In this document: positions 15,182-29,395 of the stretch, one piece after another | Numbering within the stretch: the stretch's first letter is position 1 | Layout: each line of letters begins with the position of its first letter | Assembly (NCBI GenBank): GCA_036504895.1 | Contig: DASXUJ010000073.1 | Coordinates: forward strand, 1 to 58,987 | DNA length: 58,987 nucleotides | Direction: 5' to 3' | Source of the DNA: Syntrophorhabdaceae bacterium | GTDB lineage: Bacteria; Desulfobacterota; Syntrophorhabdia; Syntrophorhabdales; Syntrophorhabdaceae | Notes under the pieces: generated by a model | What the model was told of the DNA's origin: nothing | The model's input: only the letters and a program-made list of their open reading frames with translations | Databases searched by the model: none | Program-made: the position numbers and the translations under genes

Positions 15182-15784
15182 CTAGCCGGCAGCAGGTCCA
15201 GCCGGAAATGCCAGCGCCTGGGTGAGCACGTAGGCTGCCTGGAGCGCTTCCGTAGGACAGAGGGGAAAGCATTCTTTGCAGTTCCAGCACTCTTTCGCGG
15301 CGACCTCAGGGATGAAGCAGATTTCTTTTCGGATGCCCCGGTCCACGAAGCCGATGGCGTTTTTCTTCTTCACTTCATTGCAGTACCGCACGCAGAGCCC
15401 GCAGTGGACGCAGAAGGAGGGCTCTTTGTCAAAACAGCTCTTATCGGCCCCGTACTCTTTTGCCAGGTCCTGAAGATCGAAGGCATCGGGCGCATGGGCG
15501 AGCAGGAGCTGGAGGATCATCTTGCGGATTCGGTCGACCTTTTCCGATCTCGTGCGCACTGCAATACCCTTCTCCACAGGATAGACGCAGGAGACGACCA
15601 GCTTTGTCCACCCCCGGCTCTCTACTTCCACGATGCAGAGCCGGCACCCGCCGAAAGGCTCCAGCTCCTTGTGGTAGCACAACGTAGGGATCTTGATGCC
15701 CGCTGCCTGAGCTGCCTCGAGAACGGTCGTCCCTTCTTTTGCGGTTACTTCTTTTCCATCAATCTGAAAGAGGATCTCACTCAT
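15182..15784 (-). CDS. bamI: BamI, NuoG/HoxU-like Fe-S subunit of class II benzoyl-CoA reductase
   Basis: A 200-residue ferredoxin-like subunit: N-terminal [2Fe-2S] domain of NuoG/HoxU type (Cys36, 47, 50, 66), then the conserved helix region and two [4Fe-4S] motifs (CVHCGLCVRYC and CWNCKECFPLCP). It lacks the molybdopterin-like domain of full NuoG. It overlaps bamH by 8 bp and is the last gene of the bam operon. In the Bam complex the G-H-I trio is thought to link NAD(H) to the Hdr-like parts. The assignment rests on gene order bamB-C-D-E-F-G-H-I, which matches the order known from Geobacter and Syntrophus. Confidence 0.88.
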   Translation of the reverse strand: MSEILFQIDGKEVTAKEGTTVLEAAQAAGIKIPTLCYHKELEPFGGCRLCIVEVESRGWTKLVVSCVYPVEKGIAVRTRSEKVDRIRKMILQLLLAHAPDAFDLQDLAKEYGADKSCFDKEPSFCVHCGLCVRYCNEVKKKNAIGFVDRGIRKEICFIPEVAAKECWNCKECFPLCPTEALQAAYVLTQALAFPAGPAAG

Positions 15785-17711
15785 TTTTATTCTTACCCTC
15801 CCTGACTATCGTTCTCTCTTCTTCTGGAACAGGAGGCGGGACAGGCACGCCTGAAATCTTTGTCACCGCACGAAAACGCGGGGGGCACACTTCGAAACAG
15901 GTTCCGCACTTTGTGCATTTTTCCTGGTCTACTATATGGATCTTGCCCTTGGCGCTGATGATCGCATCGGAAGGGCACTTTTTTGCACAGGTCATACAGG
16001 CCTTGCATTTCGTAGGCTCGATGTAAAAATTGATAAGCTCCTTGCAGGAGAGGGCAGGGCACCTCTTTTCCCTGACATGGGCTTCATATTCGTCTCTAAA
16101 GTACTTGAGGGTGCTCAAGAAGGGGTTGGGTGAGCTCTTCCCTAGGGCACACAGAGCGCCCTCTATCGCCGTCTCGGAGAGCTGCTCGAGAAGCTCGATA
16201 TCGCCCTCTTTGCCTTCGCCTTTGGTGATATTTGTCAGGATGGCGAGCATCTGTCTCATGCCCTCGCGACAGGGCACGCATTTGCCGCATGATTCATCGG
16301 TCAGGAAGTCGAGAAAGTACCGGGCCACATCGACCATACAGGTATCCTCGTCCATAACGATCATGCCGCCCGAGCCCATCATTGAGCCGGCTGCGGTCAA
16401 TTCATCGAAACCCACCGGGAGGTTGAGCTGGTTTTCAGGAATACATCCGCCCGAGGGTCCTCCTGTCTGAACCGCCTTGAACTTCTTGCCTCCGGGAATG
16501 CCGCCGCCTATCTTAAAAATAATATCGCTGAGAGGCGTGCCCATAGGCACTTCGACGAGTCCCGTATTAGTGATCTTTCCCACGAGAGAAAAGATCTTCG
16601 TGCCCTTGCTGGTTTCGGTGCCGAACTGGGTGAACCAGTCAGCCCCTTTGTTGATGATCATCGGCACGTTCGCCCAGGTCTCCACATTGTTGAGGACGCT
16701 GGGCTTTCCCCAGAGGCCCACGATGTTGGAGCGGATGTACTTGGGTCTCGGCTCTCCTGCGCGGCCTTCGAGGGCGGTCATGAGTGCGGTCGATTCACCG
16801 CAGACAAAGGCGCCGGCGCCCTGATGAACGATTACGTTGAAATCAAAGCCCGTACCGAGGATATTCTTCCCGAGGAGCCCGAGCTCCTCAGCCTGCCTGA
16901 TCGCGGTATAGACGTTCTCCACGGCCAGGGGGTATTCCTGGCGCACGTAGATATACCCTTCATGGGCGCCGACCGCAAAGGCGCCGATGGTCAGGCCTTC
17001 CAGAACGGCATGGGGGTTCCCTTCAAGAAGGGACCTGTCCATATACGCGCCGGGGTCACCTTCATCCGCATTGACAATCACGTATTTGATGTCGCCGGGA
17101 GCGTTACGGGTGCCTTCCCATTTGATGCCTGCAGGGAAGCCGCCGCCCCCCCTTCCTCTCAGATTCGCCTTTTTGATTTCCTGGAGCACCCCTTCGGCGC
17201 CCATCACGGAGAGGGACTTGGCGAGCCCGGCATACCCGCCGATGGCGAGGTAGTCGTTGATGCTCTTGGGATCGACGCTGCCGTTCGAGCCGAAGACAAG
17301 GCGCTCCTGATATTTATAGAAGGGGATGTCGTGTTCGTGGACGATTTTCTCATTGGTGACGGGGTCGACGTAGAGCAGGCGCTCCAGGACCTTTTTCCCT
17401 TTGATCGTCTCCGTGATAATCTCCGGCACGTCCTCCGGCTTTATCTGAAAATAGCATATTTTGTCGGGGTTGACCACAATGATGGGACCCCGCTCGCAAT
17501 ACCCGTGACAGCCGGTCCGCCTGATATCCACTTCCTTGGTGAGGCCCTGGGCGGAAAGCTCTGCCTCGAGGGCGGCCGCAACGTCGAGACTTCCGGAGGC
17601 GTTGCAGGCAGACCCGGAGCATAGGGTGATGCACGGCTTCTTGGGGTCTCTTGTCGACAGGATTTTACTCCTGAGTTCTTCCAATTCAACTGGTGAGTTT
17701 ATACGCGCCAT
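15777..17711 (-). CDS. bamH: BamH, NuoF-like NADH/FMN subunit of class II benzoyl-CoA reductase
   Basis: A 644-residue NuoF-like protein. The N-terminal thioredoxin-like [2Fe-2S] domain has all four cysteines (Cys31, 36, 68, 72). FMN/NADH motifs are GRGGGGFPAGIKW and NADEGDPGAYMDR, the N3 cluster motif is ESCGKCVPCREG, and two C-terminal ferredoxin motifs follow (CKACMTCAKKCP, CTKCGTCFEVCP), with a Pro-rich tail. It is expected to hold FMN and exchange electrons with NAD(H) in the Bam megacomplex. It starts 10 bp after bamG ends and overlaps bamI. It is distinct from the NuoF-like gene at the left edge, which has only three N-terminal cysteines. Confidence 0.9.
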   Translation of the reverse strand: MARINSPVELEELRSKILSTRDPKKPCITLCSGSACNASGSLDVAAALEAELSAQGLTKEVDIRRTGCHGYCERGPIIVVNPDKICYFQIKPEDVPEIITETIKGKKVLERLLYVDPVTNEKIVHEHDIPFYKYQERLVFGSNGSVDPKSINDYLAIGGYAGLAKSLSVMGAEGVLQEIKKANLRGRGGGGFPAGIKWEGTRNAPGDIKYVIVNADEGDPGAYMDRSLLEGNPHAVLEGLTIGAFAVGAHEGYIYVRQEYPLAVENVYTAIRQAEELGLLGKNILGTGFDFNVIVHQGAGAFVCGESTALMTALEGRAGEPRPKYIRSNIVGLWGKPSVLNNVETWANVPMIINKGADWFTQFGTETSKGTKIFSLVGKITNTGLVEVPMGTPLSDIIFKIGGGIPGGKKFKAVQTGGPSGGCIPENQLNLPVGFDELTAAGSMMGSGGMIVMDEDTCMVDVARYFLDFLTDESCGKCVPCREGMRQMLAILTNITKGEGKEGDIELLEQLSETAIEGALCALGKSSPNPFLSTLKYFRDEYEAHVREKRCPALSCKELINFYIEPTKCKACMTCAKKCPSDAIISAKGKIHIVDQEKCTKCGTCFEVCPPRFRAVTKISGVPVPPPVPEEERTIVREGKNKNE

Positions 17712-17721
17712 AATGTCATTC

Positions 17722-18174
17722 CTACTCGTAATTTTTTAATACGTCTGCCATCTGACCCGGTGTCATCTTCCCGTGAGTCTTGCCGTCAATCTCCAAAACC
17801 GGTCCCAACGCGCAGCATCCCAGGCAGTTCACTGTCTGAAGGCTGAACTTGAGGTCGAGGTCCGTCTCTCCCGGTTTGATGCCTGTCAGCTCCTGCACCG
17901 TGTCGAGGACGCGGGGCGCTCCACGGACATGGCAGGCGGTGCCCAGGCAGATGTGAATCTCGTGGCGACCCTTGGGAACGAGACTGAAGGCCTTATAGAA
18001 GGTTGCGATATGCTGCACCCGGGTCATAGGGACCTGTAGCTTCTCCGCAACCCTCTCCAATGCTTCTTTGGGGAGCCAATGGTGCTCGCTCTGAATCTCG
18101 AGGAGCACCTGAATCAGCGAGCTGGCTTCCCCATGGTGTTTCTCAATAATAGAATCGATTCTCTCCGTATCCAT
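17722..18174 (-). CDS. bamG: BamG, NuoE-like [2Fe-2S] subunit of class II benzoyl-CoA reductase
   Basis: A 150-residue thioredoxin-like [2Fe-2S] protein of the 24-kDa NuoE family, of usual length. The cluster ligands Cys76, Cys81, Cys117 and Cys121 are visible in CLGTAC and NCLGCCALGP. It partners NuoF-type proteins, here BamH encoded 10 bp downstream. It lies 35 bp after bamF in the same operon. Confidence 0.9.
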   Translation of the reverse strand: MDTERIDSIIEKHHGEASSLIQVLLEIQSEHHWLPKEALERVAEKLQVPMTRVQHIATFYKAFSLVPKGRHEIHICLGTACHVRGAPRVLDTVQELTGIKPGETDLDLKFSLQTVNCLGCCALGPVLEIDGKTHGKMTPGQMADVLKNYE

Positions 18175-18209: not shown

Positions 18210-18977
18210 TTACGCAATTGCATAGCGCTTGAGATTCTCATCGAACCTGACCAGTCTCGCCCGTGATGAGCTGCTCAGATGCCTCGATACCTCGGACGGG
18301 GTCATACCCAGATCCTGAGCGATTTCGCTGGTGGTAAGAGGTCCTTCCTTTAAAAGGGAGACGATCTGGCCGATTGCGAGTTTTTCCACGATCGTTTCGT
18401 TAAGGAGCTGGGACAACTCTTCACTGGCGAAAAACTTATAATATTCCTCTTCGGACATCACAGGCGTTCTCAACCTTTCCCTTTCCACGAGCCTGATGTA
18501 GGGAATAAGTTTCGTCACTGTATCCAGTTTGAATTTCAACGCCTTTTCGTTCAATCCCTCGATACCGCCCAGAGGTCCTAAATCTTTAATTGTCTTGACA
18601 AAATCATTCACGCTCTCGACGAACACGTTTGCTTCGCTTCCGGACATGAAGGACATCCTTAATCTTTCAGGATTAATGCCCATGTGCTCGAGAATCTTCC
18701 TCATGAGAAGCACCATGTTGAGTGTATGGTAATTTCCATGAGTTATGTAGTTACACTCGCTCAGATGGCAGGCGCCGATAAACACCCCATCCGCTCCCTT
18801 TGAGAAAGCCCGGAGTACAAATGCCGGGTCAACTCGACCGGAACACATTACACGAATAAGTCTCATCTCTGATGTATATTGCAGTCTGGAAACTCCAGCC
18901 AGGTCAGCAGCGCCGTACGCTCACCAATGACAGACAAAACCTACTATTTTCGGTTTAAATTTAAGTCCTGTACTCAT
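18210..18977 (-). CDS. bamF: BamF, MvhD-like selenoprotein subunit of class II benzoyl-CoA reductase (in-frame UGA = Sec)
   Basis: Read from ATG 18977, preceded by a perfect GGAGGTGA ribosome site, the frame runs 255 residues with a single internal UGA at 18923-18921 (codon 19). The product begins MSTGLKFKPKIVGFVCHW-Sec-AYGAADLAG, matching the MvhD/FrhD pattern CxxC-x-Y-x-GAD in which the second Cys is Sec in several archaeal and deltaproteobacterial proteins. Further family cysteines follow at 45, 70 and 75 (VMCSGRVDP, GACHLSEC). A SECIS-like hairpin follows the UGA. A C-terminal extension (about 190-255) looks like a winged helix. MvhD binds a [2Fe-2S] cluster and passes electrons to the HdrA-like subunit, here BamE, encoded 60 bp upstream. 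A standard gene finder would start it at 18866 and lose the Sec. Confidence 0.9.
18886..18898 (-). promoter_or_regulatory. SECIS-like hairpin of bamF
   Basis: On the transcript, CUGGA-GUU-UCCAG forms a 5-bp stem with a three-base loop that starts with G. The loop begins 28 bases after the UGA codon, within the 16-37 base range described for bacterial SECIS elements, whose loops carry G in the first two positions. It sits inside the coding region, as bacterial SECIS elements do. Folding energy was not computed. Confidence 0.65.
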
Positions 18978-19037
18978 TCTTTCTCACCTCCTTGCCTGTA
19001 GTCCCAGCTATCCCCGGGCCTATTTACTCGATTGGGT

Positions 19038-22000
19038 CTAAACATTTCCCACCGCCGTATCGATTTGTTTCAATATCTCTTCATCTGAAACGGCCGCGTC
19101 GATCTCGGTCAAAATCTCTTCATCGGTAAAATGTTTGAGAACGATTGCGTTTGTTGCGCATTTCGTGTTGCAGAGGCCATCGCCTTTGCAGAGTACAGGA
19201 TTTACGCGAGCCTTTCTCCCGTTCGGGCTTTCATAAAAATCGATTGCGCCGTAGGTACATGCGGTAATGCACGCCCCGCAGGAGACACATTTATCTTCGT
19301 CGACCTCACATACCGATCCCGAGGCGACAACCGTATCGTGGGAAAGGAGGGTGAGGACTCTGCCTGCCGCTCCATAAGACTGATTCACGGTTTCCTGCAA
19401 GAACTTCGGATAGTGAGCGAGCCCGCACAGATAGACACCGTCCGTGGCAAACTCTACAGGCTTCAACTTCACGTGAGCCTCTTTGAAAAATCCGTCCGGG
19501 CTCAAGGTCACCTTAAAGAGTCCCGCGATTTCTTTCGTAGACGCGGAGGGCACCACTGCAGCAGCCAGGGCAAGGACATCAGCATCGAGCTCTATTTTCT
19601 TGCCGAGGATGTAATCGGTGGTCGTCACTTTGAGGACAGACCTGCCGTCCTCTGCCTCGCCGGGCTCTACCTGGGGTGCATCCTCAGGCTCGTAACGGAT
19701 GAAACGTATGTCTTTACCTGCTGCCTCACGGTAGAAATCCTCTCTGAGGCCATAGGTTCTTACATCCCTGAAGAGAATGTATATATCCATATTCGGATTC
19801 TTCTCTTTGAGCAGCAAAGCGTTCTTTACTGATTCGCTGCAGCATATCCTGCTGCAGTAATTTCTTTCTTCGTTTCTACAGCCCACACACTGGATCATGA
19901 CAAGGCTCTGAGCGTTGACTACCTTTTCGTCGCCTTCTGCGATCTTAGCTTCGAGCTCGAGGTGGGTCATGACTCTGTCGTCCTGACCATAGAGGTATTC
20001 GGTAGGGGTATATACGTCCGCGCCGATGGCGAGAACGGCCGCACCATGTTTAATCTCGGTGGTTCCCCTGTCGGATTTCACGGTGGTGACGAAATTTCCG
20101 ATGTAGCCTGTAGCTGCCTTGATGGTGGCATTGGCATACACGTGAATGAGGGGGTGCTGATAGACCTTCGTCACCAGCTCGCGCAGGTAAGCCTGGACAT
20201 CGAGACCTTCAAGGGTAGAATGGATCTTCCGTGCGATTCCTCCGAGATCCCTGTCCTTCTCTATCAGGTATACTTCATGTCCCTGATTTGCGATCGAGAG
20301 GGCGGAGTTCATGCCTGCCACGCCGCCGCCGATTACGAGCGCCCTTTTATCTACGGGGAGATCGAACTCCTGCAGGGGCTCCAGATGGCATGCCCGGGCA
20401 ACGGACATACGGATGATATCCTTCGCCTTATTAGTGGCTGCTTCTTTTTCTTTTTGATGGACCCAGGAGTTGTGCTCCCGGATGTTTGCCATTTCATAAT
20501 AATACTGGTTAATTCCAGCTTCACGAAGGGTGTCCCTGAATAGGGGCTCGAGAGTCCTTGGAGAACACGCGGCTACCACGACCCGGTTAAGTCCTTTTTC
20601 CCTCGTGATGTCCGTTATCTCCCTCGCAGAGTTGGTGGCGCATGAAAAGACCTGATTCTGCGCGTGGACCACGTTGGGCAAGGTTTTACAGTATTCAACC
20701 GTGTCGGGGACACTTACCACGCCGGAGATGTTTGCCCCGCAGTGACAGACGAAGACGCCTATTCGCGGCTCTTCCTTGGAGACATCCCTTTCTTCCGGGT
20801 ATATCCTCTCCTTGGTGAGATTTCCACGCCTGTAGTCGAGGAGCTCGCCAATCTGGGCGCTGGCCCCACTGGCGCTGAACACGGACTCGGGGATATCGAC
20901 AGGACCCTGGAACGCTCCGGTCACGAAGATGCCGGGCTTGTTCGTTTCCATGGGATTGATCTCGCTGATCTTACAGAAGCCGTGGTCAGTGAGCTCAATA
21001 CCGTATTTATTCGAAAATTCGAGTGCATCCTTCGGAGGATTGAGACCGATAGACAATACGACCATATCGAACTCTTCCTCTTTTACCCCGTCGTCGGTGG
21101 TAGAATACCGCACGAACACGTTCTTGGTAACGGGATCTTCACGTACTATCGACGTGTAGCTTCTGAAGAAGCGGACACCGGAGAGGTTTTCCGTCCTCTG
21201 GTAATAGCGCTCGAAATCTTTTCCGTAGGCACGGACGTCGTTATGGAAAATGGTGCACTCCGAGTCGGGATGATGATCTTTTGTGAGGATGACCTGTTTT
21301 TGAGTATAGGTGCAGCAGACCGCCGAACAGTAGCTGTTGCCGCCCTCGAGCACCTGCCTCGAACCGACGCACTGAATCCAAGCCAGTTTTTTGGGATGTT
21401 TCAGGTCTGACCCACGGAGTATCTCGCCCTGGTATGCCCCCGTTGAAGACAGGAGACGCTCAAAATCCATACTGGTGATGACGTTCTGAAAATCTCCGTA
21501 GTGATATTCCTCTCTGACCTTCGGGTCAAAGGGGTCAAAGCCTGAGGAAAGAATGACGGCGCCTATGTTGATGTCAACGTTCTCGGGCTCCTGCTTTAAA
21601 TCTATCGCCTTATTCTCGCACACCGCTTCACAGATACGGCATTTCTTTTCTTTGAGATAAAGACAGCTTTCATCGATATACGCAACGAGCGGGATCGCCT
21701 GAGGGAAATAGATGTGAACCGCCTTATTATTCGAAATATCCTGATTAAATTCATCAGGGTATTTCACGGGACAATACTCAACACAGGTAGTGCATCCCGT
21801 GCATTTGTCTTCCAGGATGTACCTGGGCTTTTTTGTAAGGGTTACCTTAAAATTTCCTAACTCCCCCTCTACACTCTTCACTTCAGTATAGGTGAGTACC
21901 TCTACATTTGGATGCCGGCCGACCTCGACCAGTTTAGGTGCGAGTATTCACATGGAGCAGTCGTTGGTCGGAAAGGTCTTATCAAGCTGGGCCATATGGC

Positions 22001-22184
22001 CCCCGATACTCGGACCCTTCTCGACCAGATAGACCTTGAAGCCTGCGTTCGCAAGGTCAAGAGAAGCCTGAATACCGCTGATCCCTCCGCCAACAACCAT
22101 TACGTCTCCAAAATTTCGGTCACTGAGACTTTTACGAAGTTGTTGAATGTTCTCATTTAAGACTATTACATTTTCCACTTTCAC
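19038..22184 (-). CDS. bamE: BamE, HdrA-like selenoprotein subunit of class II benzoyl-CoA reductase (in-frame UGA = Sec79)
   Basis: One 1048-residue gene interrupted only by UGA at 21950-21948. The N-terminal 78 residues hold the FAD fold (GGGISG at 32-37) and end TFPTNDCSM; reading UGA as Sec79 continues [14 protein letters not shown], the HdrA consensus in which this position is Cys or Sec. Then come a [4Fe-4S] motif ([12 protein letters not shown]), a second HdrA-like unit with [10 protein letters not shown] and GGGVAGM, and two C-terminal ferredoxin motifs ([22 protein letters not shown]). HdrA proteins bifurcate electrons at FAD; in Bam this is thought to drive benzoyl-CoA reduction. 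The start is GTG 22184 or GTG 22178; AGGTGA is better spaced for the latter. Neighbours are bamD 20 bp upstream and bamF downstream. Confidence 0.92.
21915..21932 (-). promoter_or_regulatory. SECIS-like hairpin of bamE
   Basis: On the transcript, CUGGUC-GAGGUC-GGCCGG gives a 6-bp stem (two G-U pairs) with a loop GAGGUC containing GGU, the loop element known from E. coli formate dehydrogenase SECIS. The loop starts 22 bases after UGA79, inside the range for bacterial SECIS elements. Confidence 0.7.
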
Positions 22185-22204: not shown

Positions 22205-23356
22205 CTAAATTACTTCCTGGAGAATCTCCGTGATGTCCTTAACCTCTATATCGTCAGCATGATTGAGGACGAGCCTGCTGTCCTCGAGAGCGGTAATACA
22301 ATAGGGACAGGAGGTAACAAGTTCCGTGGCCCCAAGCTCTATAGCCTGTTCTACTCTGAGGTTGGAGAATCTTTCATGCTTTTCCGTTTCCATCCAGACC
22401 CGGCCTCCCCCCATACCGCAGCAGAGGCTATCTGCCCGTGCTTCAGGCAGTTCGTTCAGTTCCAGGCCCGGTATCTTCTTCAGCGCGTCCCGGGGAGCAT
22501 CATATATGCCGTTATGACGGCCGAGATAACATGGATCATGGTAGGTAACTTTCTTTCCGTATTCTTTAAGGACCTGAAGTTTTCCTTCGTTCAGAAGCTC
22601 CGATACATACTCGGAGATATGAACGACCTCAAAGTTCACCCTGAACTGGGGATACTCGTTCTTGAAGGTGTGATAGCAATGAGGGGAAGAGACCAGTATT
22701 TTCGTAACCCCGCTATCGATAAAGTTCTTAATGTTCTCTTTTGCCAGTTTTACGAACATCTGCTCATTGCCGGTCTTGCGGATACTCTCACCGCAGCAGC
22801 TCTCTTTGGAGCCGAGTATGCCGAAATTGACCCCGGCCTTGGTGAGTATCTTCGCCGTGGCCTGCGCCACCTTCTTTAGTCTCGGATCATAGGCAGTGTA
22901 ACAGCAGGGGAAATATAATACATCCATGCCCTCGGCAAAGGGTTTTACGTTGAGTCCCTCCGCCCAGGCCGCCCTTGTATTCCTGTCTTCATTAAAAGGG
23001 TTACCCTGTTGAGCAAGGCCTGCGCTTATAGTTTTTACGGATTTGACGGGGGCGGGAAAGACACCGTATCCCGTGGCCATTCTTCTCAGGGATATCATGT
23101 CATCGATCTGCTTTACGTCCCTGGGGCAGCGCTGAGGACATTTTCCGCAGGTGGTGCAACGCCAGATCTCTTCACGCTCTATCTCGCTCAATCCGAATGT
23201 GGCCTCTCGAATGAGTTTGCGCATGCTGAACTTTCTCACCCGGTTCCAGGGGCACACGGTATCGCATTTTCCGCATTGATAACAGAACTTGACGGCGTCT
23301 CCACCTTTTTCTTTTATCTCGTCTATTACCTCTTTGAATGGGGCTACAGTCTCCAC
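22205..23356 (-). CDS. bamD: BamD, HdrBC/HdrD-like Fe-S subunit of class II benzoyl-CoA reductase
   Basis: A 383-residue soluble Fe-S protein. Two N-terminal [4Fe-4S] motifs (CYQCGKCDTVCP, CTTCGKCPQRCP) correspond to HdrC, and two CCG domains correspond to HdrB: FPCCYTAYDPR with ESCCGES and SPHC, then HDPCYLGRHNG with LCCGMGGG and TSCPYC. CCG domains bind the noncubane [4Fe-4S] clusters of heterodisulfide reductase. In the Bam complex it is placed between the HdrA-like BamE and the BamBC catalytic unit. It lies 27 bp after bamC and 20 bp before bamE. Confidence 0.9.
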   Translation of the reverse strand: METVAPFKEVIDEIKEKGGDAVKFCYQCGKCDTVCPWNRVRKFSMRKLIREATFGLSEIEREEIWRCTTCGKCPQRCPRDVKQIDDMISLRRMATGYGVFPAPVKSVKTISAGLAQQGNPFNEDRNTRAAWAEGLNVKPFAEGMDVLYFPCCYTAYDPRLKKVAQATAKILTKAGVNFGILGSKESCCGESIRKTGNEQMFVKLAKENIKNFIDSGVTKILVSSPHCYHTFKNEYPQFRVNFEVVHISEYVSELLNEGKLQVLKEYGKKVTYHDPCYLGRHNGIYDAPRDALKKIPGLELNELPEARADSLCCGMGGGRVWMETEKHERFSNLRVEQAIELGATELVTSCPYCITALEDSRLVLNHADDIEVKDITEILQEVI

Positions 23357-23383: not shown

Positions 23384-23923
23384 TTAATCCTTCTGCGTCA
23401 TCCGGGCCGCTGCGTCCACTACCTTCTCGACGCCGTATTTATCGATGAGCGATCCTAATCCCGCTTCCACCGCTTCCATCTCCACCTGCTCCTCGACCTC
23501 CTCTTCCCGTTCTTCATAGGTAAGCACGTCGTTGATACACCACTGGACGCACATGGGTTTCTCGAGAGGCGGGTTGTCTTCGCACATGTCGCACTTTAAG
23601 GGGAGGCCTGAATCGGGTTCCTTGAAGAGGTCCCTCGAAGGGCAGGCGGCCCTGCAGAAGGCGCACTCTTCATATTCCTTGCCGTCGATAATGTACTTGT
23701 CTCTGCCCATGCACTCGGCGGGGGCATATTCACCCGCAAAGACGGGAAGCCATATGTCCTTTATGGGATGACGGATGATTTGGATGCGGGAGCGCGCCGG
23801 GTTGATCCCGCTGTATTTCGGCGTAGAGTGAAAGGCGGAGCAGACGATCTCACATCCCCGGCAACCGTTGCACTTATCCGCATCAACCTTGATTGTTTTA
23901 ATTTTCTTCTTAATCTTGGCCAT
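23384..23923 (-). CDS. bamC: BamC, ferredoxin-type subunit of class II benzoyl-CoA reductase
   Basis: A 179-residue Fe-S protein with several [4Fe-4S] motifs: CNGCRGCEIVCSAFH near the N terminus, CAFCRAACPS and CDMCEDNPPLEKPMCVQWC in the middle, as in electron-transfer subunits of the DmsB/HybA type. The C-terminal 40 residues are acidic with no motif. BamB and BamC form the isolated catalytic BamB2C2-type unit in Geobacter, where BamC donates electrons to the tungsten site. Its start overlaps the end of bamB by 14 bp. Confidence 0.9.
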   Translation of the reverse strand: MAKIKKKIKTIKVDADKCNGCRGCEIVCSAFHSTPKYSGINPARSRIQIIRHPIKDIWLPVFAGEYAPAECMGRDKYIIDGKEYEECAFCRAACPSRDLFKEPDSGLPLKCDMCEDNPPLEKPMCVQWCINDVLTYEEREEEVEEQVEMEAVEAGLGSLIDKYGVEKVVDAAARMTQKD

Positions 23924-25880
23924 CTTTCAATATCCCTCTCTTTTCTAAGTCTTCGGCAACATAACCCAGATCCAGCTCTTCGAGCCGTGCCCTGGTGGGG
24001 ATGCCGTCATCATTCCAGCCTTTAAATTTATAGTAGGTGGAGAGCAGGTTCTGCTCGAGCTCCGGGAATCTCTTCTTCCAGTGGTCTACAGGCGGCTTCT
24101 CGTCTTTGCGGCTCATGCCCCGTCTGTTGTTGACGGCCCTGTGGAGGTTTCTGCTCCGATTGACGATCTTCTTGAGCCCTGCCTCATCGAGATCGAGTCC
24201 CGTTGCTGCCGAGATGATCTTCGGGTAGTTGTGAATGTGGTAGGGGGGCTTTAAGCAGAAGGAGGACATGCCGGCGCATACGCAGCAGGCGTCGTCGATG
24301 TTGTGGAGCATCTCCATCCAGTCGACGATCTCACTGCACATGTCGGCGGTGGGGAAATAGGGGATGCCCATCTCGCCTCGGGGCTCCCAGTCGAGGAGGT
24401 ACTGTTTCATGTGCTCGCTCGGAAGCTGGGGCCATTCTTTTACGAAGGCCTCTCTCTGCTCTCTCGTGGGGAAGGCGGCCTGGGGCCAGTTCCCTTCGAT
24501 CTGGGTAATGCTGATCTTCTCGTTGGTGGCATACATGAGGAAGTAGAGAGGATCGAGGGTCCCGAGCTTCAGAGGGAGCTGCTCATGCCTCTTGATCGTA
24601 TTGTGGTCGAATGCCTCCGCGCCGTTGCCGATCGCGCGGGCCGCATAGTAGACGCCGTCGGCGAGCACGTCTCCGATGCCTTCCCTGCGGGCAACCCGGT
24701 CGAGGAGCCAGAGGAACCTTCCCTCTTTATCCTTGGGGGCTCCGTCGAAATCTTTGTCGGTTAATATGCCGGCATCATAAAGCTCGATGCCGAAGGCGAT
24801 GATCTGGGGGGTCGAGAAGGAGTCCATCCCGTATTCGGTCGCCCTCTGGAGGGTCTTCCAGGCAAAGTCCATGGTATCTACATAGGAAGCCATGGCATAG
24901 GTCAGCTTGCCGAAGCATTTTGCCATGTAGCGGGGGGTATCCTTATAGGAGATCAGCGCGCCGCAGTGCTGGGGACAGTTAAAGCAGCTGATGAGGCGCT
25001 TGATGCCTTCCTTCTGCGTCTTCGGCCACTCCTCTGCGATGGTGTCATCCCAGAATCCCCTTCTTCTCGTACGGGCGTTGCCCCACATGAAGTTCTCCGT
25101 GTGCCACTTCTCGTCCGTATGGACCATCTCCTGGGGAGAGCCGATACCGGAGAGGATGGTCATGACGTCGGGGATGGGGTTCGTGTTCCGGTAATTGATA
25201 TAGGCCATCATGTCGCGCATGTGCTGGAGGAACTCTTCGCCCCTGGCGAGGTTGATGTCTTTCGTGCCCCGTACCGCCACTGCCTTGATCTTCTTATCTC
25301 CCATGACCGCGCCGCCGCCTAACCTGCTGGCGGAGGACCTGCCCTGCTCGATGGAGGCGGTGAAGCACCTGTTCTCTCCGGCAAGACCGATGGCCGCGAC
25401 CTGGGCGTTGGGGCAGTTGAGCTCTTTTCTGATGAGGTCCTGGGTCTCGAGGGCGCCCCTGCCTTTCAGGTGGCGGGCGTCACGTATCTCTACCTTGTCG
25501 TTGTTGATCCAGATGTAGACCCAATCGGGCGACTTGTTGCGGAAGAGTACCTTGTCATACCCCGCGTACTTCAGCTCTGCTGACCAGAACCCGCCCATCA
25601 TGGGGTAGGCGAGGAGCCCCGACTGGGGGGACATGAAGGTCACTACCGTGCGGTTCGCGCTGAAGGCCGGGGTGGCGTTGAGAATACCGGAGCTGAATAT
25701 CAGCAGGTTCTCGTCGTCAAAGGCCTGCGTCTCAGCGGGCACGCGGTCCCAGTGGAGCTTTACGCTGGTGCCGAGACCTCCGAGATGGGTTTCCAGCAGC
25801 TTAGGGTCGGTCTCCACCCGTTCAATGTTTTTTGTAGCTAAATCGATCTCCAGATTATACCCTGTTTCTCCGTATCTCAT
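23910..25880 (-). CDS. bamB: BamB, tungsten-containing catalytic subunit of class II benzoyl-CoA reductase
   Basis: A 656-residue member of the aldehyde:ferredoxin oxidoreductase family, with two cofactor-binding domains and a [4Fe-4S] motif CFNCPQHC (Cys299, 302, 306) completed by a Cys near 530 in the CCVCAGMSSFC stretch. It reduces benzoyl-CoA to cyclohexa-1,5-diene-1-carboxyl-CoA without ATP. Residues Glu251, His260 and Cys322 fall at the numbers I recall for the tungsten-site residues of Geobacter BamB, and length is identical to that family, which supports BamB over a general aldehyde oxidoreductase. It is the first gene of the eight-gene operon. The start ATG follows AAGGGG. fdhD is divergent upstream and could serve cofactor sulfuration. 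Confidence 0.93.
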   Translation of the reverse strand: MRYGETGYNLEIDLATKNIERVETDPKLLETHLGGLGTSVKLHWDRVPAETQAFDDENLLIFSSGILNATPAFSANRTVVTFMSPQSGLLAYPMMGGFWSAELKYAGYDKVLFRNKSPDWVYIWINNDKVEIRDARHLKGRGALETQDLIRKELNCPNAQVAAIGLAGENRCFTASIEQGRSSASRLGGGAVMGDKKIKAVAVRGTKDINLARGEEFLQHMRDMMAYINYRNTNPIPDVMTILSGIGSPQEMVHTDEKWHTENFMWGNARTRRRGFWDDTIAEEWPKTQKEGIKRLISCFNCPQHCGALISYKDTPRYMAKCFGKLTYAMASYVDTMDFAWKTLQRATEYGMDSFSTPQIIAFGIELYDAGILTDKDFDGAPKDKEGRFLWLLDRVARREGIGDVLADGVYYAARAIGNGAEAFDHNTIKRHEQLPLKLGTLDPLYFLMYATNEKISITQIEGNWPQAAFPTREQREAFVKEWPQLPSEHMKQYLLDWEPRGEMGIPYFPTADMCSEIVDWMEMLHNIDDACCVCAGMSSFCLKPPYHIHNYPKIISAATGLDLDEAGLKKIVNRSRNLHRAVNNRRGMSRKDEKPPVDHWKKRFPELEQNLLSTYYKFKGWNDDGIPTRARLEELDLGYVAEDLEKRGILKDGQD

Positions 25881-26710: not shown

Positions 26711-27523
26711 ATGACTGTTTTATCGCTGACTCAGGTCGATGTTTTGCGCTTGTCCACGTCCGGTTCCGATACTCCATGGATCGAAGGAACCGCCGGAGTG
26801 GCTGTCGAAGCGCCTTTAACTATAGATATCGAAGGGGTAGATTCGTACACCGTGCTCTGCAGTCCGGGCGACAGAAGGGCCATGGCCGTAGGCTTTATGT
26901 TTTCAGAGGGGATTATCAAGGGAGTAGGGGATATTGCTCTCCTCGCGGATTGCATCGATTTCGAGGAAATGATGCGGGTGCGGCTCAATAGCCCACCGGC
27001 AAATGAGACGGGTACACCCGGACGGAACATGCTCGTCGTCTCCTCGTGCGGCATGTGCGGAAGCACGGATATGAAGGAGAGGATTGCGGACCTGCCGAAG
27101 GTGGGAAACACGCTTCTCATCGATGTTGAGACAATTGAGCGCGTGATGCAATCTCTGGGAGAGAGGCAGGAAGTATTCAACAAAACAAGAGGGACCCACG
27201 GGATCACCATATTCGACGGCAGGGGGGATGTGGTCTCATTTGCCGAAGATATCGGCAGGCATAATGCACTGGACAAAGCCATCGGGAAAATACTGCTTGA
27301 GGGAAAAACGTCCGTAGGCTGCGGCGCCGTGCTTTCCGGCAGGGTCAGTTTCGAAATGGTCTCCAAGTGCAGCCTCGCGGGTATCGAGATCATCCTCGCC
27401 GTCTCCGCCCCGACATCGCTTGCGCTGGATGCCGCCTCACATTGCGGCATCACTCTTTGTGCTTCGGTTCGGGAGGGCAAGGCAACGATTTTTACCAACC
27501 CGCAGCGGATCAGGCGCGCCTGA
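26711..27523 (+). CDS. fdhD: FdhD, sulfurtransferase for Mo/W bis-pterin enzymes
   Basis: A 270-residue FdhD-family protein of usual length. It carries the catalytic cysteine motif SSCGMCGS (near residue 113) and the family signature EDIGRHNALDKAIG near residue 177. In E. coli FdhD passes sulfur from IscS to the molybdenum cofactor of formate dehydrogenase. No formate dehydrogenase gene with a catalytic residue is in the window, so its local client may be BamB or the molybdopterin-like fusion protein; that is inference from position. It is divergent from bamB across the shared regulatory region and has a TTGTGAA half site right before its start. Confidence 0.92.
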   Translation: MTVLSLTQVDVLRLSTSGSDTPWIEGTAGVAVEAPLTIDIEGVDSYTVLCSPGDRRAMAVGFMFSEGIIKGVGDIALLADCIDFEEMMRVRLNSPPANETGTPGRNMLVVSSCGMCGSTDMKERIADLPKVGNTLLIDVETIERVMQSLGERQEVFNKTRGTHGITIFDGRGDVVSFAEDIGRHNALDKAIGKILLEGKTSVGCGAVLSGRVSFEMVSKCSLAGIEIILAVSAPTSLALDAASHCGITLCASVREGKATIFTNPQRIRRA

Positions 27524-28150
27524 TCCCATTGCTCCTGGTGCTGACCAGCGCCGTGAAATGACCAGGCTATAGGAGCATATGAATCGTTTCATGCAGGTTG
27601 GTCGGCGACGATGGAAAGTCACTCCGTCTATACTAACCCACCCGTATATACTAATAATGGTAAGGTCCGTACAAACCCGCCCCTCATTCCGAATATTCTC
27701 CCTCTGCTTACCTGTACCGCAGGCGTGGACAGCGGACCTGTCGACGGTTTATATGAGAGAAAGGTGAGGGTGACCATGAGCGCAGGGAGTAGCGATTCCG
27801 GGGGTCGGAGCACAGCGCCGCGGGATGTTTGTGAAAGTTTTCCTTTATGCCCTTGACACCATTCTTTTTATTTGATACTGTTAGCCATTGCGAGGAAAAT
27901 TAAATGGTGAAGGCACTCACGGTCTTGCTGCGGAGAATACGGGAGAGAGGGATACCTTTATCGTTACAGTAGCGCGACTTGAGCGGGCAAAGATCCGAAA
28001 CGTGGTATAATACGCACCTGCATGAGGGCGGAATGCCGGATTAGATGCGGAGCAGACGATCGAGAGGGTAAAACCCCTTTTATTATAGGCAGATCTGATA
28101 GGGGCAGGAAAAAATGGCCTATCTTTTCTATAAAATCAATAAAAATTGGA
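27524..28150 (+). other. Gene-free stretch with candidate moeA promoters and a structured leader
   Basis: No credible gene lies between fdhD and moeA. Two promoter candidates are visible: TTGACA-N17-TACTGT at 27853-27881, and an extended -10 TGGTATAAT at 28003-28011. The second gives a leader of about 130 bases that contains a GATAGG/CCTATC hairpin (28097-28123) followed by TTTTC, weakly attenuator-like, 28 bp before the moeA start. I could not match it to the molybdenum-cofactor riboswitch by eye. Confidence 0.4.
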
Positions 28151-29395
28151 ATGACCATGGAAGAAAGAAAATCTACAGTCTCCGTTGAAGAAGCTCTGAA
28201 AATCATTCTGGACGCGGTCCGTCCATTGGGCAGTGAAACCGTCCCTATTATGGAGGCAGTCAACCGTGTGCTTTTCGAGGATATCGTATCGGACATAATG
28301 GTCCCTCCCCTCGATGATTCCGCCATGGACGGTTATGCGGTGATTGCCGCGGATACCCTGGGCGCGTCAAGGGACAAGCCCGTAAAGCTCCAGGTTACGG
28401 GTGAAGTCCAGGCAGGCGGGGCGTTTCTGGACAAAGAAGTTTCAGCAGGACAAGCCATCAGGATCATGACCGGTGCGCCGGTCCCGAAGGGGGCTGATGC
28501 GATTGTCAAATTTGAAGACACCGCGGAAGAGGGCGGCATTGTCAGAATCTTCCATGAAACGACCAAATACAATAACTACAGGTTCGCGGGAGAGAGCATC
28601 AGGAAGGGAGACACGGTCCTGTGCAAAGGGGACAGGCTTAATTCCGCGGGGGTGGGTATTCTCGCGTCGCAAAACCGCAACATGGTGAAAGTATTCAAAA
28701 GGCCGACTGTCTCGATTATCTCGACGGGAGATGAGCTGGCTGATATAGGCCAGGAGATCAAGATCGGTCAGATCAGGGACGTGAACGCCTACACCTTATA
28801 CTCGGAGACGAGAAAATACAGGTCCCTTCCGACCTATCTCGGCATCGTGAAGGATACGGTAAAGGATGGCAAGGGAATTTTTCTCGAGGCCCTGAAATCG
28901 GACGTGGTCATATCGACCGGCGGCGTGTCCATGGGAAGATATGATTTTGTAAAGGAGATATATTCCGAGCTTGGAGTGGAAATGGAGTTCGAATGGGTAA
29001 ATGTGAAGCCGGGAAGACCCTGCGCGTTTGGAAAGACAGGAGATAAATTGGTGTTCGGCCTGCCCGGTAATCCGGTCTCGACCCTGACTTCATTCATGCA
29101 ATTCGTGCGCCCCGCATTATTGAAGTTGATGGGCGCGAAAAAAATACATAAACCGGTTGCGAGCGCTATCCTCGAAGAAGATGTGAAACATCAGGCAGGG
29201 AAGACGAATTTTTTGAGAGGCCGTTTCACTATCAGGAACGACCAGTTTTACGTCACCACGACGGGCAGCCAAAAATCATCCGTACTCAGCTCCATGAGTG
29301 ATGCGAACTGTCTCATTATCATACCGGAATCAGAGGTGAAGGTAAGGGCGGGGGATAGGGTGACCATTCAATTGATCGAACACGACGAAATATGA
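28151..29395 (+). CDS. moeA: MoeA, molybdopterin molybdenumtransferase
   Basis: A roughly 414-residue MoeA-family protein that inserts molybdate (or tungstate in such anaerobes) into adenylated molybdopterin. Typical motifs are DDSAMDGYAV, GEVQAGG, TGAPVPKGADAIVKFEDT, STGDEL, the MoCF_biosynth loop STGGVSMGRYDFV and the C-terminal GLPGNPVSTLTSFMQFVRP. The reading frame is open further upstream, but conserved similarity begins near ATG 28151 (or ATG 28157). It ends directly against the stop codon of the convergent mobB-like gene without any space. With fdhD it points to local supply of pterin cofactor. Confidence 0.93.
   Translation: MTMEERKSTVSVEEALKIILDAVRPLGSETVPIMEAVNRVLFEDIVSDIMVPPLDDSAMDGYAVIAADTLGASRDKPVKLQVTGEVQAGGAFLDKEVSAGQAIRIMTGAPVPKGADAIVKFEDTAEEGGIVRIFHETTKYNNYRFAGESIRKGDTVLCKGDRLNSAGVGILASQNRNMVKVFKRPTVSIISTGDELADIGQEIKIGQIRDVNAYTLYSETRKYRSLPTYLGIVKDTVKDGKGIFLEALKSDVVISTGGVSMGRYDFVKEIYSELGVEMEFEWVNVKPGRPCAFGKTGDKLVFGLPGNPVSTLTSFMQFVRPALLKLMGAKKIHKPVASAILEEDVKHQAGKTNFLRGRFTIRNDQFYVTTTGSQKSSVLSSMSDANCLIIIPESEVKVRAGDRVTIQLIEHDEI

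Follow-up and report, generated by a model that had tools for sequence, protein, structure and literature searches.

The window analysed here is a stretch of 58,987 nucleotides from a Syntrophorhabdaceae bacterium (contig DASXUJ010000073.1), and it carries a cluster of minus-strand genes built around a tungsten benzoyl-CoA reductase. From the upstream to the downstream end, these genes are:

23910-25880, minus strand: bamB, catalytic subunit of the tungsten benzoyl-CoA reductase, matching 4Z3W along its full length (E 8.8e-288)
23384-23923, minus strand: bamC, iron-sulfur subunit (from its open reading frame and operon position)
22205-23356, minus strand: bamD, HdrD-like subunit
19038-22178, minus strand: bamE, HdrA-like, 1046 aa when codon 77 is read as Sec; probable GTG start at 22178
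18210-18977, minus strand: bamF, 255 aa when codon 19 is read as Sec (reading frame, FlpD/MvhD domain and ArsR-like helix-turn-helix)
17722-18174, minus strand: hoxE/nuoE-like subunit of a bamGHI module
15777-17711, minus strand: bamH, hoxF-like subunit with a true TGA stop
15182-15784, minus strand: hoxU-like subunit

BamB aligned with 4Z3W over 654 residues at 959 bits, while the next match, an aldehyde oxidoreductase (AOR), reached 193 bits. The gene order runs bamB, C, D, E, F, followed by the NuoE/HoxE-, HoxF- and HoxU-like genes. Judged by sequence, the operon encodes a class II benzoyl-CoA reductase, and the MvhD-like gene is assigned as bamF by context because it shares the operon with a true BamB gene, with bamC to bamE and with NADH-dehydrogenase-like neighbours. 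Two plus-strand genes adjoin the operon, one FdhD-like (26711-27523) and one MoeA-like (28022-29395); both were named from a reading of their sequences and possibly serve the tungsten cofactor.

An in-frame UGA codon in bamF

The reading frame of bamF is interrupted early, and its 5' part contains the following features:

18984-18993, minus strand: Shine-Dalgarno sequence AAGGAGGTGA, 10 bases, ending 6 bases before the ATG
18977-18975, minus strand: start codon ATG (the stop codon TAA lies at 18212-18210)
18921-18923, minus strand: in-frame TGA (codon 19) at the U of a CxxU motif (C16-H-W-U19)

Codon 19 is the sole in-frame TGA of the gene. The predicted product matched the PF02662 (FlpD/MvhD) profile over residues 11-134 with 165.4 bits (gathering score 22.3), and among solved structures it came closest to the MvhD subunit of Mvh-Hdr (5ODC, E 4e-43), in which the second Cys of CNWC is the aligned counterpart of U19. 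The initial annotation, made from the letters of the sequence, had placed a single UGA exactly at the second Cys of the MvhD CxxC motif, and the alignment agrees with this placement. It had also described a ribosome site and family-typical sequence around the codon (FVCHW-Sec-AYGAADLAGVSR), which the position of AAGGAGGTGA and the MvhD alignment confirm. A [2Fe-2S] cluster requires four ligands, and BamF offers five candidate Cys/Sec positions for them (16, 19, 45, 70 and 75).

An ArsR-like helix-turn-helix occupies residues 204-236 at the C-terminus (window 18210-18370, minus strand), an odd feature for an electron-transfer subunit. Roughly one-fifth of the BamF relatives align only to about residue 196, and the helix-turn-helix may be missing or different there.

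Under translation table 11 the longest open reading frame starts at ATG 18866 and encodes 218 aa instead of 255. A call from this ATG therefore drops 37 N-terminal residues, C16 and codon 19 among them, as had been anticipated from the sequence. Such a call is what a standard gene finder would make, and it would be correct if the TGA were a real stop, leaving either a pseudogene or a protein without CxxU. However, the strong Shine-Dalgarno sequence and the intact family sequence both lie upstream of the TGA, and comparison with other genomes makes a genuine stop very unlikely. One scan of GTDB genomes yielded 80 bamF loci, 79 of them covering codon 19. TGA occupied this codon in 79/79 covering relatives from other genomes, or 80/80 with the window copy, a set of related and hence not independent sequences, and the residues upstream of the TGA were also conserved in the 79 foreign relatives. 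The uniform TGA is not a search artefact, because the query carried Cys at codon 19: wherever one of the six search peptides reached this residue it read C, and the one spanning it favoured Cys codons. Going by record titles, the TGA-bearing relatives belong to Desulfobacterota and delta-proteobacteria, Firmicutes/Bacillota, Chloroflexota, Spirochaetes and others. In homologues the position is Cys, as is characteristic of a bacterial selenoprotein gene.

A misread TGC or TGT codon would need no more than one substitution in a draft assembly of 138 contigs. Yet the same TGA recurs in dozens of independent assemblies, among them that of an isolate, Desulfocucumis palustris (L086), and those of unrelated metagenomes, so that the probability of a sequencing or assembly error is close to nil; the check for TGC/TGT that had been proposed earlier thus returned TGA in independent genomes.

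The genome itself encodes the machinery expected for selenocysteine. We found selA (E 1.8e-171), selB (E 1.3e-110) and selD (E 4.0e-110), each above the curated cut-off, together with a tRNA-Sec gene (selC; 69.2 bits, anticodon TCA), so that all four components the initial annotation had proposed to look for are present. This full set also bears on a genome-wide reassignment of UGA, for instance to Trp or Gly. Read-through of UGA in two genes of the operon might point to such a code, but bamH ends in TGA, so UGA otherwise acts as a stop in the bam operon. Moreover, the main bam frames contain no further internal TGA besides the bamF and bamE sites, and the position aligns with Cys rather than with Trp or Gly. 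We regard reassignment as having a negligible chance of being right. Pseudogene, sequencing error and reassignment were accordingly all rejected, given the conserved TGA, the selenocysteine machinery and the TGA stop of bamH.

Several further loci touch on this family. One of the two selD genes of the genome (L010, G000:C108:13608-14522) contains an in-frame TGA, as does known Sec-containing SelD, the likeness being limited to the presence of the TGA. A second MvhD-like gene of the same genome (L015, G000:C99:32213-32581) has a UGA at the same site as bamF; its subfamily, found across the class, carries a different conserved hairpin with a ACCTGGCAGGT core and a loop at 20 nt. Four class relatives (L129, L143, L144 and L145) encode Cys versions of the BamF-like protein that read CNWCCYGGADLC and contain two extra Cys, and the HdrA partner at Cys-version loci is also Cys where readable (loci extended as L172-L174).

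The candidate bSECIS hairpin of bamF

Downstream of the UGA, the coding sequence contains a short inverted repeat:

18886-18898, minus strand: bSECIS-type hairpin CTGGA-GTT-TCCAG, overlapping codons 27-31 of bamF (Ala-Gly-Val-Ser-Arg)

Its stem comprises 5 bp, and its loop (GUU in the RNA) opens with a G that is base 28 downstream of the UGA, leaving 27 nt between them. In the published bSECIS model, a stem of 4-16 bp closes a loop of 3-9 nt with a G in the first two bases, at a distance of 16-37 nt from the UGA and with a minimum free energy (MFE) of at most -7.5 kcal/mol (PMC13188914). The bamF hairpin falls within these ranges for stem, loop, spacing and MFE, with folds of the region at -10.5 kcal/mol (40 nt) and -8.6 kcal/mol (42 nt), each including a second small helix. 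Compared with shuffled sequences, its free energy was unremarkable (z 0.08), and comparable 5-bp Watson-Crick hairpins follow about 2% of the codons in the operon (69/3345). For these two reasons, the hairpin in a single sequence proves little. A search of the window at Rfam gathering thresholds gave 0 matches, which is uninformative for a short in-frame bSECIS.

The comparison among relatives is more telling. Among 89 columns with a conserved amino acid, codons 27-31 showed the five lowest normalised synonymous entropies (0-0.22, against a median of 0.78), whereas codon choice varies for most other conserved residues. Four or more Watson-Crick pairs closing a G[G/U] loop were present in 80/80 sequences and in 21% of synonymous recodings, and a full 5-bp stem in 76/80 as opposed to 8%. 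Covariation was sparse, with one two-sided change that keeps the pair: in L072, a G-C replaces the T-A pair. Among homologues of the same class, a hairpin follows the site in 22/22 UGA genes but in 7/22 Cys genes. On this comparison, which we consider decisive, selection acts on the nucleotide sequence of the bamF hairpin. The 5-bp hairpin with a G-starting loop 28 bases past the UGA, pointed out in the initial annotation, is therefore present in the sequence and conserved beyond its amino acids.

bamE as a second UGA-containing gene

Directly upstream of bamF, the HdrA-like gene bamE shows the same arrangement with a different sequence:

21948-21950, minus strand: in-frame TGA of bamE, codon 77, in NDCSM-U-ILAPKL, at the HdrA CxxU site (CSMU)
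21915-21932, minus strand: bSECIS-type hairpin of bamE, CTGGTC-GAGGTC-GGCCGG

A standard call of bamE begins at GTG 21881 and gives 947 aa without the expected HdrA N-terminus, a loss of about 99 residues. Reading the TGA as Sec extends the frame upstream to a probable GTG at 22178, which follows shortly after GAGGTGA. The TGA was kept in all 59 covering sequences (58 relatives and the window). Synonymous entropy across 531 columns was lowest at hairpin codons 83, 84, 85 and 88, and one pair of the stem varies between U-G, U-A and C-G with pairing always kept. In Cys-bearing bamE homologues, the nucleotide block of the hairpin is gone. The internal stop of bamE thus almost certainly encodes selenocysteine. 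The earlier proposal of bamF as a selenoprotein gene was borne out, but it had overlooked bamE as a second such gene in the same operon.

These data also help to weigh an alternative in which the UGA of bamF does encode Sec, while codon usage, ribosome pausing or a different kind of binding site maintains the block at 18886-18898 and the SECIS is located outside it. The unexceptional free energy of the hairpin and the little variation in its pairs (the change in L072 being the one two-sided case) would fit this idea. Against it stand the position, stem and G-first loop, which match the published model (PMC13188914), and the example of bamE, where a different sequence adopts the same architecture, one pair changes from U-G to U-A or C-G, and Cys homologues lack the block. 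We therefore judge a SECIS elsewhere to be very improbable and favour the hairpin at 18886-18898 as the bSECIS of bamF.

Proposed role and comparison with known systems

Taken together, the sequence evidence makes it highly probable that the UGA of bamF serves as a selenocysteine codon by way of SelB, tRNA-Sec and the downstream hairpin, and that the product is an MvhD-like connector of the BamB-I complex. In the proposed mechanism, SelB and tRNA-Sec would read codon 19 as Sec, with insertion probably directed by the in-frame hairpin whose loop lies 27 nt downstream; BamE would likewise acquire Sec through its own UGA and its own hairpin. MvhD, like its homologue ElpC, joins the electron donor and HdrA by means of a [2Fe-2S] cluster situated close to the bifurcating flavin, and the mechanism of this MvhD/HdrA electron-transfer step has been described as unknown (PMC12350162). 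From this role, BamF is most likely a connector to the flavin of BamE, with Sec where Cys is found elsewhere. Within BamB-I, a putative tungsten benzoyl-CoA reductase complex of class II, the [2Fe-2S] cluster that BamF would carry by homology with MvhD and ElpC would donate electrons to the bifurcating flavin of BamE or accept them from it, and Sec may replace a cluster-ligand or redox-active Cys and so tune a low-potential electron-transfer step.

A more tentative suggestion, which we hold to be possible though rather doubtful, is that the selenocysteines of BamE and BamF act as a pair between the [2Fe-2S] cluster of BamF and the flavin of BamE, aiding a two-electron or very-low-potential step. 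In 18 scorable loci of 20 from the class, Sec stood at both the E and the F site in 9 and Cys at both in 6, 3 had Cys in E but Sec in F, and 0 had the reverse; since these loci were hand-picked and are related, the counts are only a pattern to test.

For annotation, two gene models are corrected, bamF by 37 and bamE by about 99 residues, redox motifs included. Across many phyla, selenium appears to be built into two subunits of the complex, and selenium supply should therefore limit anaerobic benzoate degradation wherever the Sec version is used. Sec and Cys versions both occur in nature and can readily be compared to learn what Sec contributes to electron transfer of the HdrA/MvhD type.

Class II benzoyl-CoA reductases were reportedly described as W/Se-containing by Loeffler et al. 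in 2011. The operons of Geobacter metallireducens, Desulfococcus multivorans and others have the same order of bamB-C-D-E-F followed by NADH-dehydrogenase-like genes, and bamF of G. metallireducens is annotated as a hydrogenase delta subunit with a helix-turn-helix, like BamF here (PMC1924859). In D. multivorans, Sec has been reported in BamE, whose gene bears two locus tags, and is listed for BamE and one MvhD, not explicitly for BamF (PMC5109826). The literature searched, which covers a minority of the primary papers, yielded no sentence naming Sec in BamF.

A recent review tabulates Sec both in PF02662 proteins (MvhD/VhuD, CxxU) and in HdrA (CxxU) (PMC13188914). BamF has the domain and the CxxU site in common with these PF02662 selenoproteins (PMC13188914) but differs from them in its fusion to a C-terminal helix-turn-helix, in its place in a benzoyl-CoA reductase operon and in its predicted bacterial in-frame SECIS, where theirs is an archaeal 3' UTR element. 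Similarly, bamE has CSMU at the site of CxxU in HdrA selenoproteins (NF040770), whereas BamE, at about 1046 aa, is longer and has a two-part, HdrA-like build. With Sec already known in both families, bamF and bamE represent well-supported, if fairly ordinary, further cases.
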